A stretch of 64,000 nt of DNA from Geoglobus acetivorans (GTDB lineage Archaea > Halobacteriota > Archaeoglobi > Archaeoglobales > Archaeoglobaceae): NCBI RefSeq assembly GCF_000789255.1, contig NZ_CP009552.1, positions 186,001 through 250,000 of the forward strand, read 5' to 3'. The notes beneath the pieces are model-generated. The model was not told where the DNA came from and searched no databases. It saw only the letters and a list, made by a program, of their open reading frames with translations. The position numbers and the translations under genes were made by a program. Position 1 is the stretch's first letter; every line of letters begins with the position of its first letter. Positions 16,512 through 27,645 of this stretch are shown in pieces.

Positions 16512-17474
16512 TGTAGTTTCCTAAAATCATTTCCCACCATCAAACCACCTCCACGAATAACTCAATATTCTCTCAGGAGTCAACTTTCTCAAAAATGCTT
16601 TATAGGGAGTCTCCAGTTCATCTAAGTTGAGACTCATGTGGGGTCTTTTGTGATTGTACCACTCCATGAATTCATCTACTGTATCGAAATACTTGATTTT
16701 AGCTTCCAGCGTTCCATAGAACCTCTCTATCTTTCCATTCGTTTGTGGGTGATTCACCCTACCCACAATATGCTTAATTTCATTCTCTGCAAGGAATTTC
16801 TCAAATTTAGATACTCCTTTAGCCTTCTTCTCCCCTGCAGATGCGTAGAACTGAGTACCTCTATCCGTCAGGATTGATTCCGGCCTGCCATAATCATCCA
16901 TGGCTTCTTTTAGCACTTTTATGGCATTCTCAGATGTTGCTTTATCAAATACTCCGTAACCAGTAATCAGACGGGAAGCATCGTCCAGATAAGCAATTAT
17001 CCACTTCCCGTTATAGAAAAACCAGTCTGCATGCCATAATTCCATAGAGTGCTTTCTCTCATACCTTATCCACTTTTTACGCTTTTTCTTGTTCTTCTCC
17101 TCCTTAGCATAGCCGTTCATTCTCAACACTTCGTGTATTTTGTTCTTGCTTATTCTGTAACCTCTTTCCTTTAAGATTGTTTGGAGAACTACTGCATTAC
17201 ACCTGTACTCTTCATAGGCTTCTTTTATGGCTTCTATTTCTTCTTCTGATAGTTCTTTTTTAGGTCTACCTGGTTTCTTTGGCTTTGGTATTTCTCCAGT
17301 ATCTTTGTATTGCTTGTAGATCTGATTTACTCTTCTTGGTGTTATGTTTTCGATCTCTGCTATCTCCTTTGTCGGTGTACCCTTCTCTTTCTCTCTGATA
17401 ATCCATTTTATCGCTTTCTCGTCAAGTTTCACATGGGGGTTTGTTGAAGTGGGAAATAATTTCGGGAAAAGACA
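16512..17474 (-). mobile_element. 963-bp insertion sequence, copy 1 (ISA0963-like, IS481 family)
   Basis: Ends are TGT...ACA with imperfect inverted repeats, about 17 of 23 positions alike: TGTCTTTTCCCGAAATTATTTC at the transposase-start end and TGTAGTTTCCTAAAATCATTTC at the other. Length is exactly 963 bp, as in the ISA0963 element known from A. fulgidus. The flanking 15-mers differ from each other; each matches a flank of copy 2 in reverse complement. The transposase-stop end faces tRNA-Cys 55 bp away. Confidence 0.95.
16527..17432 (-). CDS. IS481-family transposase, copy 1
   Basis: 301 residues from a GTG inside the element (VKLDEK). A longer frame to 17483 only reads through the IS end into flanking DNA. 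An N-terminal helix-turn-helix (TPTKEIAEIENITPRRVNQI) is followed by a second HTH-like region and a basic linker (KKKRKKW). The integrase-core DDE domain has ELWHADW (Asp 1), ILTDRGTQF (Asp 2) and HPQTNGKIERFY (Glu). Encoded protein is identical to copy 3 and differs from copy 2 at one residue. Confidence 0.95.
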   Translation of the reverse strand: MKLDEKAIKWIIREKEKGTPTKEIAEIENITPRRVNQIYKQYKDTGEIPKPKKPGRPKKELSEEEIEAIKEAYEEYRCNAVVLQTILKERGYRISKNKIHEVLRMNGYAKEEKNKKKRKKWIRYERKHSMELWHADWFFYNGKWIIAYLDDASRLITGYGVFDKATSENAIKVLKEAMDDYGRPESILTDRGTQFYASAGEKKAKGVSKFEKFLAENEIKHIVGRVNHPQTNGKIERFYGTLEAKIKYFDTVDEFMEWYNHKRPHMSLNLDELETPYKAFLRKLTPERILSYSWRWFDGGK

Positions 17475-17489
17475 GGTGAGCATTCATAC
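17475..17489. repeat. Right flank of IS copy 1 (matches right flank of copy 2)
   Basis: GGTGAGCATTCATAC, the exact reverse complement of 51466-51480. It is the displaced half of the target duplication made by copy 2. Confidence 0.95.
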
Positions 17490-17752
17490 AGGATTTATAC
17501 AGGCTGGAAAAAATCATGCAGTCCAGCACCAAAAGTAGCAGAAAATTTCGCTGCTCATCTTTTTCCGAAAAAGCAGAAGCCTAAAAGAATTAGTTTCCAA
17601 GAATTGCAACAAAAAAGATATGTCAGAGAATTACCGGGTTGCCTCAATCTCCAGAAACTGCCCAAAATCTTAAACAGGCATGAAACACGGACAACATATC
17701 AGAGGCAACATTTAAATCTGAGTGATTGAAGATTTGTTTCAGAGGGTCAAAA

Positions 17753-18832
17753 ATGTACAAGTCATTTGAAATACAAAATTTCAGGTGTTTCAGAGAGTTT
17801 CACATAGACCAGCTAAGGAGAATTAACTTAATCGTTGGAATGAATAATGTCGGAAAAACTGCATTACTCGAGGCTTTGTTTATTCACTCCATCCTAACAA
17901 ACAAAAAAGTAATGGATTCTGAAAGGTTTGTATATGGATCTCTAAAATATATACTCTCAAAACTCTGGCTACTGCGTGGCCTAACTCCACATAAGATGCC
18001 CAGTTTCAGACGAAAAACGGAAATAATGCTGGAATCACTGTTTTTTGATTTCGATACGGACAGAGAGATGACATTTAAAAGTACAGAATATGACAAAGAA
18101 GAGCATAAACTAACAATAAAAGTGCTGAAACATGCAGGAATTAAAGACTACGCACATATAGACTGGATATACGAACATCCACAGGCATTGGAAATTTCTT
18201 TCAATATATCTTCATATATTTACCCCTACCCTCCTGAAATAAACCACAAAGCGTCCATATCGCCAAACAGAACGATAGACTCCGTGGTTTTTCTGGCATC
18301 ATCATACAGGCCAGATCCAACACTCGACTCAGAAAGACTTGGAAATCTCGAGGTGCAGGGAGAAGAAAATGTGATCGTGGATGCTTTAAAAATTATTGAA
18401 CCTCGCTTAAAAAGACTTTTTGTCAGAGTTGTAGATGAAGTGCCTATAATCCATGGCGACCTCGGTTTTAGATCCAGAATACCGCTACCTTTGATGGGAG
18501 AAGGGATGGTCAAACTTTGTAGCATAATTCTGGCAATAGCAAATGCTAAGGACGGGGTAGTTCTAATAGATGAAATAGAAAATGGATTTCATTACTCCAT
18601 TCAAAGCAAAGTATGGACAGCCATAGGAAAGGCAGCGGAAAGGTTCAACGTTCAGGTTTTCGCCACAACCCACAGCAGAGAATTTATTGTCGCAGCACAC
18701 GAAGCATTTTCAGATGACAAATACAATTTTAGACTGTATAGGCTGGAAAGAATAGGCGACGAAATAGAGGCCATACCATACGATAAAGAATCCTTGGAAG
18801 CCGCTCTGGAGATGGATCTGGAGGTAAGATAG
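17753..18832 (+). CDS. AAA ATPase of the OLD/AAA_15 type
   Basis: 359 residues from ATG 17753, with AGAGGGT upstream; the open frame extends to 17726. N-terminal FEIQNFRCFREFHID is the typical SMC/OLD-like beginning. Walker A is GMNNVGKTAL, an ABC-like region surrounds LPLMGEGMVKL, Walker B is VVLIDEIENGFH, and a switch ATTHSREF follows. No nuclease domain is fused. The TOPRIM-like DUF3226 gene starts 2 nt after the stop, so the two form a split OLD/PARIS-like pair. A TATA element lies at about 17709-17717. Confidence 0.85.
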   Translation: MYKSFEIQNFRCFREFHIDQLRRINLIVGMNNVGKTALLEALFIHSILTNKKVMDSERFVYGSLKYILSKLWLLRGLTPHKMPSFRRKTEIMLESLFFDFDTDREMTFKSTEYDKEEHKLTIKVLKHAGIKDYAHIDWIYEHPQALEISFNISSYIYPYPPEINHKASISPNRTIDSVVFLASSYRPDPTLDSERLGNLEVQGEENVIVDALKIIEPRLKRLFVRVVDEVPIIHGDLGFRSRIPLPLMGEGMVKLCSIILAIANAKDGVVLIDEIENGFHYSIQSKVWTAIGKAAERFNVQVFATTHSREFIVAAHEAFSDDKYNFRLYRLERIGDEIEAIPYDKESLEAALEMDLEVR

Positions 18833-18834
18833 TA

Positions 18835-19470
18835 ATGGCCAGAACCACCATCCTAACAAAGCCAATCATATTACTCGGAGAAGGAAAAGACGAGGAATTG
18901 TTCCTTAGGGCTTTGATAGAATACATGGGATTAGACGAATATATTCAGGTTCTGGAATATGGTGGCAAAAATAGACTACACCAGTTTATGAGAGCATTCG
19001 TGAACACAACAGGATTTAAGAACGTTAAAGCAATTGGTATTACGAGAGATGCTGATGATGACGGGTTTGAAAACGCGTTTAAGAGTGTTCGAAGTGCATT
19101 AGCTAGCGCCAACCTGCCAACGCCAGAAAGGCCCTTTGAAGTAGCCGGAAACAAACCGAAGGTGGCCATTATGATATTGCCAGACAACAGCTCGAATGGA
19201 AAGCTGGAGGACCTATGTCTGGAATCAGTAAAAAATGATCCTGCAATTGAATGCATAAATTCGTTTTTTCAATGTCTTAGTGAGAATAAAATCGAACAAA
19301 GAGATAAATCAAAAGCGAGAGTTCACGCATTTTTGGCTACGAGATACGAACCTGATAAAAGATTGGGCGAAGCTGCTAAAGCAGGATACTGGAATTTTGG
19401 CAGTCCTGCATTTAATGAGCTGCGCGGGTTTATCAGATTGCTTTCAGAATCCACAAAGACCATGGATTAA
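18835..19470 (+). CDS. DUF3226 TOPRIM-like protein
   Basis: 211 residues starting 2 nt after the ATPase gene. LLGEGKDEELFLRALIE gives the TOPRIM glutamate, ITRDADDDG supplies the Asp-x-Asp acidic motif, and VAIMILPDNSSNGKLEDL is typical of DUF3226. These are predicted metal-dependent nucleases or regulators of the OLD nuclease group. The close coupling to an AAA ATPase suggests that the two act together. In PARIS the equivalent pair is an AAA_15 ATPase with a DUF4435 TOPRIM protein. The defence role here is inferred. Confidence 0.8.
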   Translation: MARTTILTKPIILLGEGKDEELFLRALIEYMGLDEYIQVLEYGGKNRLHQFMRAFVNTTGFKNVKAIGITRDADDDGFENAFKSVRSALASANLPTPERPFEVAGNKPKVAIMILPDNSSNGKLEDLCLESVKNDPAIECINSFFQCLSENKIEQRDKSKARVHAFLATRYEPDKRLGEAAKAGYWNFGSPAFNELRGFIRLLSESTKTMD

Positions 19471-19507: not shown

Positions 19508-20788
19508 ATGCTCATCGCAAAAGACCCTGAAAAGCTCCAGAAAATGCTGATCTCAAAGATAATTGACGAGAACCGGAAATTCTCGTCTAAATACGGGACA
19601 GAACTGAGAGGAAAGCCCCAGCTTGTTATTTCTGAAAACCCGGCTTCAGACTTTGAGCCGGATTCAAGCGGCTGGAGAGCCTGTGGAGAAACGTATTCAG
19701 AAAGAGTTGAGGACTGCATCAGTGATGCGATAGAGAAGCTTAAAAAGGTTCCATACTCCCGAAGAGTCTCAATCCCCGTTTGGAGACCAAAAGACCACCT
19801 GTGTGATACGCCCCCGGCAATAACAGAGATAAGTCTCCTTTACGCAGATGGCAGGCTGCATGCTACAGCATTTTTCAGGTCTCTTGATGCCGTAAACTAC
19901 TTCATGCCAAATTTCAGCTTTGTCAGCCATGTTCTGGAAGAGGTCTCCGGAAATGCCGGTTTCGAAGCCGGAAGCGTGGCGATGCTGATCTCGATCCCCC
20001 ACATTTACGAGAGAGACGTTGACAGGGTGAGCAGAAGACAGTACACAGAAATTTTCGGATTTCACAAGCTCGGCACTCATATAGTGGAGGATTACCTGTC
20101 TTCCGCCTGGCATTCAGCCCTTGAAAACATCTACTACAATGGGGACGCAAAAAGGACGGAGTGGGGCGAGCTTTTCGAAGGACAGGAAGAGAGCAGATAC
20201 ATCCACAGAATGTTCATAGAAGTGAAGAATCCGGAAGAGAACCAGATACACGACAAGGCACCGTTCACGAAAAAGTATGGTGTTGAGTATGCCCACGACT
20301 ACGTCATTCATGCGGGTGCAATAGACAGAGAGGTTAGAGAAAACATACTCAGGGAAGGGGAAACATACACCTATGCTGAGAGGGCAAGATACTGCGAGAA
20401 AGACGATGTAAGAGTCGACCAGCTGTACACCGTAATACAGAAACTGAAAGAGAGACAAAGCAGGAGAGATTGCTACATAGGAATTTCAAGACCATGGGAC
20501 ATCACGAGCGATGAGCCGCCATGTCTGAGGGGGTATCAGTTCGGGGTCAATGAAACATTTTTCGGACTGTTTTACATGCGTTCAAACGATGCCTACGGGG
20601 CCATGCATGCAAACATGTTTGCATTCAACCTGCTTACCAGATATCTCGCAGAGATGTGCGGGTTCGACAGTCACAGATACTACCACTTCGCTCTTGACGC
20701 CCACATCTATGGAGAATTCATAGAATCTGTAAGAGAGATACTCGAACCGGAAACTCCGGGATACATTGACATGATTGAAAAAAGATGA
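19508..20788 (+). CDS. Tandem thymidylate-synthase-fold protein
   Basis: 426 residues holding two TS-like halves. C-half: SRR (318-320), Cys339 in EPPC, RSND (358-361), Asn369 and LDAHIY. Spacing matches E. coli ThyA (R127, C146, R166, D169, N177, H207/Y209) within one residue. N-half: SRR (84-86), RSLD (124-127), Asn135 and PHIY at the same spacing, but Ala104 replaces the Cys. ThyA is a homodimer whose sites take arginines from the partner, so this looks like a fused pseudo-dimer with one Cys site. It may make dTMP or modify another pyrimidine nucleotide. It lies 37 nt after the AAA/DUF3226 pair, but its GC is higher. Confidence 0.8.
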   Translation: MLIAKDPEKLQKMLISKIIDENRKFSSKYGTELRGKPQLVISENPASDFEPDSSGWRACGETYSERVEDCISDAIEKLKKVPYSRRVSIPVWRPKDHLCDTPPAITEISLLYADGRLHATAFFRSLDAVNYFMPNFSFVSHVLEEVSGNAGFEAGSVAMLISIPHIYERDVDRVSRRQYTEIFGFHKLGTHIVEDYLSSAWHSALENIYYNGDAKRTEWGELFEGQEESRYIHRMFIEVKNPEENQIHDKAPFTKKYGVEYAHDYVIHAGAIDREVRENILREGETYTYAERARYCEKDDVRVDQLYTVIQKLKERQSRRDCYIGISRPWDITSDEPPCLRGYQFGVNETFFGLFYMRSNDAYGAMHANMFAFNLLTRYLAEMCGFDSHRYYHFALDAHIYGEFIESVREILEPETPGYIDMIEKR

Positions 20789-20794
20789 ATCAGC

Positions 20795-22093
20795 TTACTG
20801 GACCTTTTCCCATTTGTAAAGTTCCACAATCTCAGCAAGAGTTCTTCCCTTGTCCTCTATCTCGCCCCTGATTCTCTCCTCATGTTTTTTGACCTCAAGT
20901 GCCCTTCTTGCAATCTCATACGCCCTTTCCTTAGGTATCACCATCACTCCATTGTCGTCAGCAACAATCCAGTCACCGGGGTTGACCTCAATCCCGCCAC
21001 ATTCAACTTTCACGTTAATCTCTCCAAATCCCTTTGGCTCACCGGCATTGGGAACCTCTCTTTTTGCGAAGATCGGATAGCCGAGTTCCCTGATATCGTC
21101 CACATCCCTCACAGCACCATCAATGATTACCCCTTCAATCCCCTTGTTTATGCAGCTCCTTGTTGCAAGCTCACCCCACACTGCCGCATTGTCTCCCGAA
21201 ACCTTTATGACGATCACATCTCCCTTTCCAGCAACATCTATTGCCTCGACTGGCTTTGCCCAGTCACCATCAAAGGCGCTGACAGTTACGGCCTTACCCA
21301 CAATCTTCTTTCCCCTCACGACAGGGTGCACGTCTCTCATGGCCCTTGCCCTGTGCATCGCATCGCTGATATTGGGCGTGGAGACCCTCATCAGAATTTT
21401 CCTTATTTCCTCGTCAAGCTCTCTTTTCCTCAATTCCACCTTCTTTCCGCTTTTCCATGCATTATCCACTGCCGCCCTAACCTTCCTTGCAGACTCCACA
21501 ACATTTCTTGACTTCGTTATATTGCTGCCCACAATAACTATGCTTGCGCCCAGAGAAACGCAGTTTGCAGCCTTTTCAGCATCCAGACCGCCTGCTGCCG
21601 CAACAGGGATGCTGACCTCGTTCGCAACACTTGAGAGGATTTCGAGAGGATCCATACCCTTCATCTGCTGGTCTATTCCAACATGCACGTTTATGTAATC
21701 CACACCGAGCTCCTCAAGCTCTTTCGCCCTTTCAACCGGGTCGGGGACGTTTATCATGTCCACCATAATCTCGGAGCCGTACTTTCTTGCTGCCCTGATT
21801 GCCTCCTGGATCGTGGAATTGTCGCTCAGTGCAAGGATTATCACAATGTCAGCCCCACTTTTTGCAGCCATCTCCACCTCGACATTTCCGGTATCAATGG
21901 TCTTCATGTCGGCAAGAGTTTTCACCCTGAACCTCTTCTTGATCTCCCTTATAGAATCCATCCCCTCGCTCTTAATGAGGGGTGTACCCACCTCAAGCCA
22001 GTCGGCACCACCTTCAAGAGCCTCTCCTGCTATCTCAACAGCTCTTTTTAACTCAACAAGGTCAAGAGCAACCTGAAGTATGGGCTTATCCAT
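20795..22093 (-). CDS. hps: Fused 3-hexulose-6-phosphate synthase / RraA-like protein
   Basis: 432 residues. Residues 1 to about 215 are hexulose-phosphate synthase of the OMP decarboxylase superfamily: ALDLVE at the start, the DMKTIDTG catalytic motif and GADIVIILA. In archaea this enzyme runs in reverse, supplying ribulose 5-phosphate for nucleotides, or fixes formaldehyde. Residues about 230-432 are RraA-like ([26 protein letters not shown]), a fold that includes HMG aldolases and RNase E inhibitors. The fusion is known in archaea; the role of the second domain is unclear. Convergent with the TS-like gene. Confidence 0.9.
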
Positions 22094-26883: not shown

Positions 26884-27645
26884 ATGAAAGCATCGGAATT
26901 CAACCGTTTTGTTGAAAAATATATTCGTCCATCCACATACCCCATTGGGTTCAGGCTTGTGAAACATGAAGGAGAGGTTCCGGAAAAAGCCAGGCGATTT
27001 GAAGGCATAACAATATGTCAGGCCTACAACATGGCAAGGAGGTATAAATGGACGGTTTATTTTGATGCGAACACCATCTGCCCCATCGGACTTGTCGCCT
27101 ACGGGTTTTGTGAGGCAGATGAGCTTTACAGACGGGGTGAACTCGCATACGATGCAGGATACGCCTCAACGAAAGAGGCGGGAATTGAATTCGAAAATGC
27201 AGTTGCAAAGCTCAGAACAGGCGAATACTCAGGTGCCTTTGTTTTCCCTCTGGAAAGAGATGAGGCAGTACCGGATTTTGCCGTCATTTACGGAACCCCC
27301 GCCCAGATACTGAGGTTAATTCACTCTGTTCTCCACGAGAGAGGAGGGGCTTTCGAGACAAGAATACTGGGCAGAGCTGCCTGCAGCGAATATCTGGAAG
27401 CATTCATAGAGAAAAAACCAAGATTCGTTCTCCCATGCTATGGGGACAGGCTGTTCGGTCTGACTCAGGATGACGAAGTTGCTTTTGCATTTCCCTGGAG
27501 TATGGCGGAAGAGATAGCAAGGAACCTCGAAGCAACTCACAAACGGGGGATCAGATATCCTGTTCCAGCCACATCCCTCAGACTGAAGCTGAGCCTTCCG
27601 AAGAGCTATGAAGAATCCCTGAAGAATATGAAAAAATCAGATTAA
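26884..27645 (+). CDS. DUF169 family protein
   Basis: 253 residues. YPIGFRLV near the start, ITICQAYNMARR, the Cys-containing CPIGLVAYG region and LPCYGDRLFGL later are the conserved blocks of DUF169, a family common in anaerobic archaea and bacteria whose role is unknown. The two cysteines in CQAYN and CPIG could bind a metal or cluster. TATA (TTTTAATATTTAA) lies just upstream. It overlaps the convergent pdxT end by 9 nt. Confidence 0.75.
   Translation: MKASEFNRFVEKYIRPSTYPIGFRLVKHEGEVPEKARRFEGITICQAYNMARRYKWTVYFDANTICPIGLVAYGFCEADELYRRGELAYDAGYASTKEAGIEFENAVAKLRTGEYSGAFVFPLERDEAVPDFAVIYGTPAQILRLIHSVLHERGGAFETRILGRAACSEYLEAFIEKKPRFVLPCYGDRLFGLTQDDEVAFAFPWSMAEEIARNLEATHKRGIRYPVPATSLRLKLSLPKSYEESLKNMKKSD

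Follow-up and report, generated by a model that had tools for sequence, protein, structure and literature searches.

ThyA-type thymidylate synthase (TS) is the textbook homodimer of identical subunits. In the Escherichia coli enzyme, R126 and R127 of one protomer touch the dUMP held by its partner, and mixing the wild type with an R126E/R127E mutant gives a heterodimer whose single working site is in the mutant subunit (PMC5981203). Such a one-site heterodimer binds dUMP with wild-type affinity, and an engineered one-site enzyme also figures in the restoration experiments of Maley et al. in 1995 (both described in PMC5981203). Work on the half-the-sites reactivity of ThyA and on the communication between its subunits continues to use mixtures of mutant subunits, whose dimers can re-assort, and a need for covalent locking has been expressed (PMC5981203). 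Little is known of archaeal ThyA biochemistry and of the pterin that is used (PMC9012536). A domain duplication has been noted in an uncharacterized ThyX of Chloroflexi (PMC3224940). In the open-access literature, to which our search was confined with subscription literature outside it, we found no description of a tandem ThyA.

RESULTS

A tandem ThyA gene in Geoglobus acetivorans

The window, that is, the whole 64,000-nucleotide stretch of DNA that was analyzed, comes from the complete genome of the heat-loving archaeon Geoglobus acetivorans, a single contig of 1,860,815 bases (1.86 Mb). It contains an open reading frame, running from ATG to stop, that encodes a tandem ThyA protein of 426 amino acids (Table 1). 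The Pfam ThyA family PF00303 matches the protein in two separate stretches (E = 2.3e-30) with a score of 106.1 bits, above the curated cut-off of 24.3. The best NCBIfam match is the archaeal-type thymidylate synthase TIGR03283, with 153.8 bits, which is below the equivalog cut-off of 174.55. By sequence, the solved relatives are thymidylate synthases and CMP hydroxymethylase. When aligned by hhalign to canonical archaeal ThyA, the N-half gave a probability of 99.6, with a gap at the helix that carries Glu58, and the C-half gave 99.9. The finding is real and lineage-wide, and the protein is a variant of ThyA, not another kind of enzyme.

An earlier note, made from the DNA letters, had proposed a single-chain pseudo-dimer of two TS domains. 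An AlphaFold2 model of the whole chain, built on 19 homologues, had a mean pLDDT of 90.4 and a pTM of 0.91 and shows two TS-type halves; together with the two PF00303 stretches, this supports the proposal. Because the pTM is high, the relative placement of the halves in the model appears confident. The best Foldseek matches of the model in the PDB were MilA, phage dCMP hydroxylases, and thymidylate synthases; the hits also include the N229D/dCMP structure of Lactobacillus casei TS.

TABLE 1 Features of the tandem ThyA gene, with positions in the window
Feature	Position	Strand	Basis
Tandem ThyA gene, including stop codon	19508..20788	+	ORF, translation, PF00303 in two stretches
N-half, residues 1-176, TS fold, putative helper	19508..20035	+	PF00303, hhalign, model secondary structure
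R85-R86, equivalents of E. coli R126-R127, putative trans donors to the C-site	19760..19765	+	47/47
Ala104, at the position of the catalytic Cys	19817..19819	+	A 42, S 3, T 2 of 47
R124-S125, phosphate-pocket residues kept in the N-half	19877..19882	+	47/47
H165-x-Y167, sugar-binding motif kept in the N-half	20000..20008	+	47/47
Linker region, residues 177-188, approximate	20036..20071	+	Alignment boundaries, model
C-half, residues 189-426, putative catalytic half	20072..20785	+	Best PF00303 stretch 284-415, hhalign
Helix 255-267 with E260, C-half only	20270..20308	+	Model, hhalign, homologue alignment
R320-D321, equivalents of E. coli R126-R127 in the C-half	20465..20470	+	Alignment
Cys339, predicted nucleophile	20522..20524	+	47/47
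R358-S-N-D361, phosphate and pterin-site motif	20579..20590	+	47/47
N369, pyrimidine-reading Asn (E. coli N177 equivalent)	20612..20614	+	47/47
H399-x-Y401, sugar-binding motif	20702..20710	+	47/47

Conservation differs between the two halves

Residues were compared in a set of 47 distinct full-length sequences, collected from nearly all Archaeoglobales and, in a second class, from three families. The landmarks of the N-half are S84-R85-R86, R124-S-L-D127, N135 (11 residues after R124), and H165-I-Y167, with Ala104 in place of the nucleophile; those of the C-half are S318-R319-R320, R358-S-N-D361, N369 (11 residues after R358), H399-I-Y401, and Cys339. The earlier note had found these landmarks in both halves at the E. 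coli spacing. The catalytic landmarks of the C-half and the R-S, the H-x-Y, and the missing Cys of the N-half recur in 47/47, which goes against the possibility, raised in that note, that the marked residues might vary, but the SRR of the C-half lies one residue out of register. Anchored on an invariant ISRPWD motif and on sequences of one genus (g12) that read S-R-N or S-R-D, the alignment pairs the two lent arginines of E. coli with R320 and D321, and the second arginine is thus lost in the C-half. Of the 47 sequences, 39 have D at position 321, one has N, one has T, and one is unreadable there, a loss in 41 of the 46 readable sequences; the 5 with Arg all come from the second class.

The catalytic site of the C-half is invariant. 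C339, R358, S359, D361, N369, H399, and Y401 are present in 47/47 and match the E. coli catalytic C146 and the residues R166, S167, D169, N177, H207, and Y209 by which a subunit binds its own dUMP. R85 and R86 of the N-half, which in a ThyA dimer would extend into the site of the partner, are likewise present in 47/47. None of the 47 N-halves has the catalytic Cys, so the split noticed at the outset, one half with the Cys and one without, holds throughout this set. The N-half also lacks the Glu58 helix, seen as the gap in its hhalign alignment, and helix 255-267 is modeled in the C-half only. By profile alignment to archaeal ThyA, E260 in this helix is the probable equivalent of E. coli Glu58. 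The position is E or D in most relatives (D in many) and N, S, or D in genus g12.

Mean pairwise identity is 44% for the N-half vs 62% for the C-half. The conserved landmark pattern of the fused protein is far beyond chance. Because the conservation is directional, the N-half looks fixed as a donor and the C-half as a catalyst. The suggestion that fusion had let one half become a helper gains from this pattern, from the confident one-chain model, and from the phylogeny given below.

dTMP supply in the host genome

The complete genome has no PF00303 gene besides the fused one. Profile searches of the host genome gave no match to ThyX (PF02511) and no thymidine kinase, with the controls behaving as expected; a separate thyX or thyA, which the earlier note had asked about, was therefore not found in this genome. 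DHFR was found by profile search neither in the host nor in any of 57 Archaeoglobales genomes. A gene of the dUTPase/dCTP-deaminase family is present in the host genome and could be the source of dUMP. The base-reading position is Asn in ThyA and Asp in dCMP hydroxymethylases such as the T4 enzyme, and since N369 is Asn in 47/47, dUMP is favored over dCMP as the substrate. Among the functions that had been offered, dTMP synthase appears the favored one, given the sole ThyA-type gene, the lack of matches to ThyX and thymidine kinase, and N369.

Gene neighborhood

No gene neighborhood of the fused gene was common to different genera, and gene context therefore gives no hint of function. Convergent with the gene (20795-22093, minus strand) lies a fusion of an OMP-decarboxylase/HUMPS-family domain to an RraA-like domain, and this fusion is a common neighbor in Geoglobus only. 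Upstream (17726-19470, plus strand), an AAA_15/AAA_21 ATPase is directly followed by a DUF3226/TOPRIM-like protein. The pair matches AbiLi/PDC-M38A and PDC-M38B in PADLOC and is a candidate anti-phage system; it looks like an insertion because neither of the syntenic Geoglobus loci, L004 and L005, has it. An rve-type integrase/transposase (16527-17483, minus strand) adjoins this candidate defense pair and is not in the syntenic relatives. Farther downstream (26884-27645, plus strand) lies a DUF169 protein (PF02596, COG2043).

Distribution and origin

Our whole-genome search covered one phylum. Of the 57 Archaeoglobales genomes, 47 had the fused gene, whole or in pieces, and 15 had ThyX; 39 genomes had the fused gene without ThyX, 7 had ThyX only, 8 had both, and 3 had neither, the last being 54 to 81% complete. 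The eight with both comprise six genomes of g12, one that is 9% contaminated (G030), and one that is 76% complete and carries a truncated gene (G018). Where one of the two genes is present the other tends to be missing, the kind of replacement to be expected if both enzymes carry out the same reaction. Beyond the class, five genomes of the families f17, f26, and f29 have the fused gene, all without ThyX; our guess is that this second class is Syntropharchaeia.

A tree was made of the 47 N-halves, the 47 C-halves, 30 single-domain ThyA-family proteins of archaeal genomes, and E. coli ThyA. The N-halves formed one clade (support 100), as did the C-halves (100), and the two clades were sisters (99). 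With each set of halves monophyletic and the two sets sisters, duplication and fusion appear to have been a single event. The simplest account from these sequences would be a single duplication followed by fusion, predating the split between the versions of the two classes; a later transfer of the fused gene between the classes is possible.

One of the three Archaeoglobales genomes with neither gene (G016) carries three separate single-domain ThyA-family genes (L100, L101, and L102), two of which branch with other single-domain archaeal ThyA proteins, while one is very divergent and possibly derived from mobile elements or viruses. A viral origin of the fused gene was considered and rejected: peptide patterns found no fused relative in IMG/VR, and no phage-record match covered 80% of the query.

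DISCUSSION

We favor, with a probability of roughly 80%, the reading that the fused protein is the single-chain, one-active-site dTMP synthase of these archaea, paired like a ThyA dimer. The two ThyA domains of one chain would sit against each other in the way that separate subunits do in an ordinary ThyA dimer. Cys339 of the C-half would attack C6 of dUMP, which would be bound by R358, S359, H399, Y401, and N369 of the same half, and R85 and R86 of the N-half would complete the phosphate site of the C-half in trans. With no Cys and no Glu58 helix, the N-half would be unable to catalyze, which would leave a single active site per chain.

Methylene-tetrahydromethanopterin would probably donate the carbon and the hydride, since tetrahydromethanopterin is in use in Archaeoglobales, and a methanopterin cofactor is plausible for the fused enzyme. 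Cofactor use by the ThyA of methanogens is largely unstudied (PMC9012536). A ThyA-like reaction would leave a dihydropterin product that needs reduction; most of the 57 genomes, all of them DHFR-less, carry a ThyA-type enzyme expected to yield dihydropterin. Two recycling partners were considered and set aside. DHFR is absent from all 57 genomes. A DmrX-like flavoprotein (TIGR02700) occurs in 24 of the 39 genomes with the fused gene only and in 0 of the 7 with ThyX only, but the match covers the flavoprotein part only (profile positions 1-142), falls below the cut-off, and is missing from close sisters, including the 94%-identical sister G025. Partial and patchy as it is, this match is suggestive at most.

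Two other readings concern what the whole protein is. The earlier note had also offered a nucleotide hydroxymethylase or methylase with a different substrate. Such an enzyme would act on a nucleotide of the dCMP or CMP type, and dTMP would be formed by some other route. The ThyA family does include such enzymes, and in the Foldseek ranking MilA and the phage dCMP hydroxylases stand near the top of the solved structures; this ranking does not discriminate, because MilA and thymidylate synthases score similarly. The uniform Asn at the base-reading position, with the Asp of the T4 enzyme absent, the lack of a match in the complete genome to any further gene known to form dTMP, and an NCBIfam match that is best to an archaeal thymidylate synthase make a hydroxymethylase highly improbable. 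It is also conceivable that there is no intramolecular pseudo-dimer, and that chains pair via their C-halves or swap halves, the N-half being a passive appendage. ThyA homologues are obligate dimers, and the oligomeric state cannot be read from sequence. A dimer of two C-halves would, however, be without the second partner arginine in most of the family, the N-half keeps both arginines in 47/47, and the one-chain model is confident over both halves. We regard pairing between chains as quite unlikely, a little less so than a hydroxymethylase.

Two further readings accept a single-chain synthase and concern its parts. Besides lending arginines, the N-half might keep a noncatalytic nucleotide pocket that takes up dUMP, dTMP, or another nucleotide and regulates or stabilizes the C-site. 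Of the 183 positions in the N-half, just 12 do not vary among the 47 sequences (G30, Y63, R85, R86, E107, T120, R124, S125, G155, H165, Y167, and R169), and R124, S125, H165, and Y167 are 4 of the 7 equivalents of the half's own dUMP site, an enrichment with a hypergeometric P of about 3e-4 in a test that takes no account of phylogeny or of structural constraint. R320 of the C-half is also still available in 47/47. On the other hand, a structural role may be what preserves these N-half residues, the second partner arginine of such a pocket is gone from 41 of the 46 readable sequences, and D127 and N135 persist in just 37/47 each. We hold the pocket as a tentative idea, with the odds somewhat against it. 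The stronger version, a natural pseudo-heterodimeric TS whose N-half is a dedicated regulatory nucleotide-binding domain without catalysis, seems to us unlikely; if true, half-the-sites behavior would be built permanently into one chain. The other reading is confined to genus g12, in which the fused protein may be losing, or may have changed, its catalytic role. All six g12 genomes (loci L011-L016) carry ThyX along with the fused gene, and at the E260 position three of them have S, two have N, and one has D, compared with E or D elsewhere. With ThyX present and the position so altered, catalysis in g12 is doubtful. Cys339 and the other C-site residues nevertheless stay invariant there, and the genus is one clade, hence possibly one event, so that we put a change of role in g12 at a little under an even chance.

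Returning to the one-site synthase, a lineage with fused subunits, one of them a helper, would if true provide a natural thermostable asymmetric TS that is unable to re-assort. The fused enzyme also suggests a route to dTMP, and hence DNA, in Archaeoglobales.

Comparison with known systems

Single-domain archaeal ThyA (TIGR03283, PF00303), a homodimer, provides the nearest relatives of the fused halves in the tree and shares the fold, the catalytic Cys, the phosphate arginines, the Asp, the Asn, and the HxY motif. The fused chain differs in having two domains, one of which is without the Cys and the Glu58 helix, and in scoring below the equivalog cut-off. MilA, the CMP hydroxymethylase, and the phage dCMP hydroxylases likewise have a TS-type fold, but they are single-domain proteins that act on cytidine nucleotides, whereas the Asn of the fused protein is of the dUMP type. 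The DHFR-TS of protists and plants is also a fusion with a TS domain; its partner, however, is a different enzyme and not a second TS domain, and it is still homodimeric with two TS sites. The tandem ThyX of Chloroflexi is another duplicated dTMP synthase, but it belongs to an unrelated family and fold, with no evidence of site loss. Closest in arrangement are the engineered E. coli heterodimers, which likewise have one functional site and take arginines from the domain whose own site is unused. Those are noncovalent laboratory mixtures, whereas the archaeal chain was fused by evolution, and by this analogy it looks like nature's counterpart of the engineered one-site TS heterodimers.
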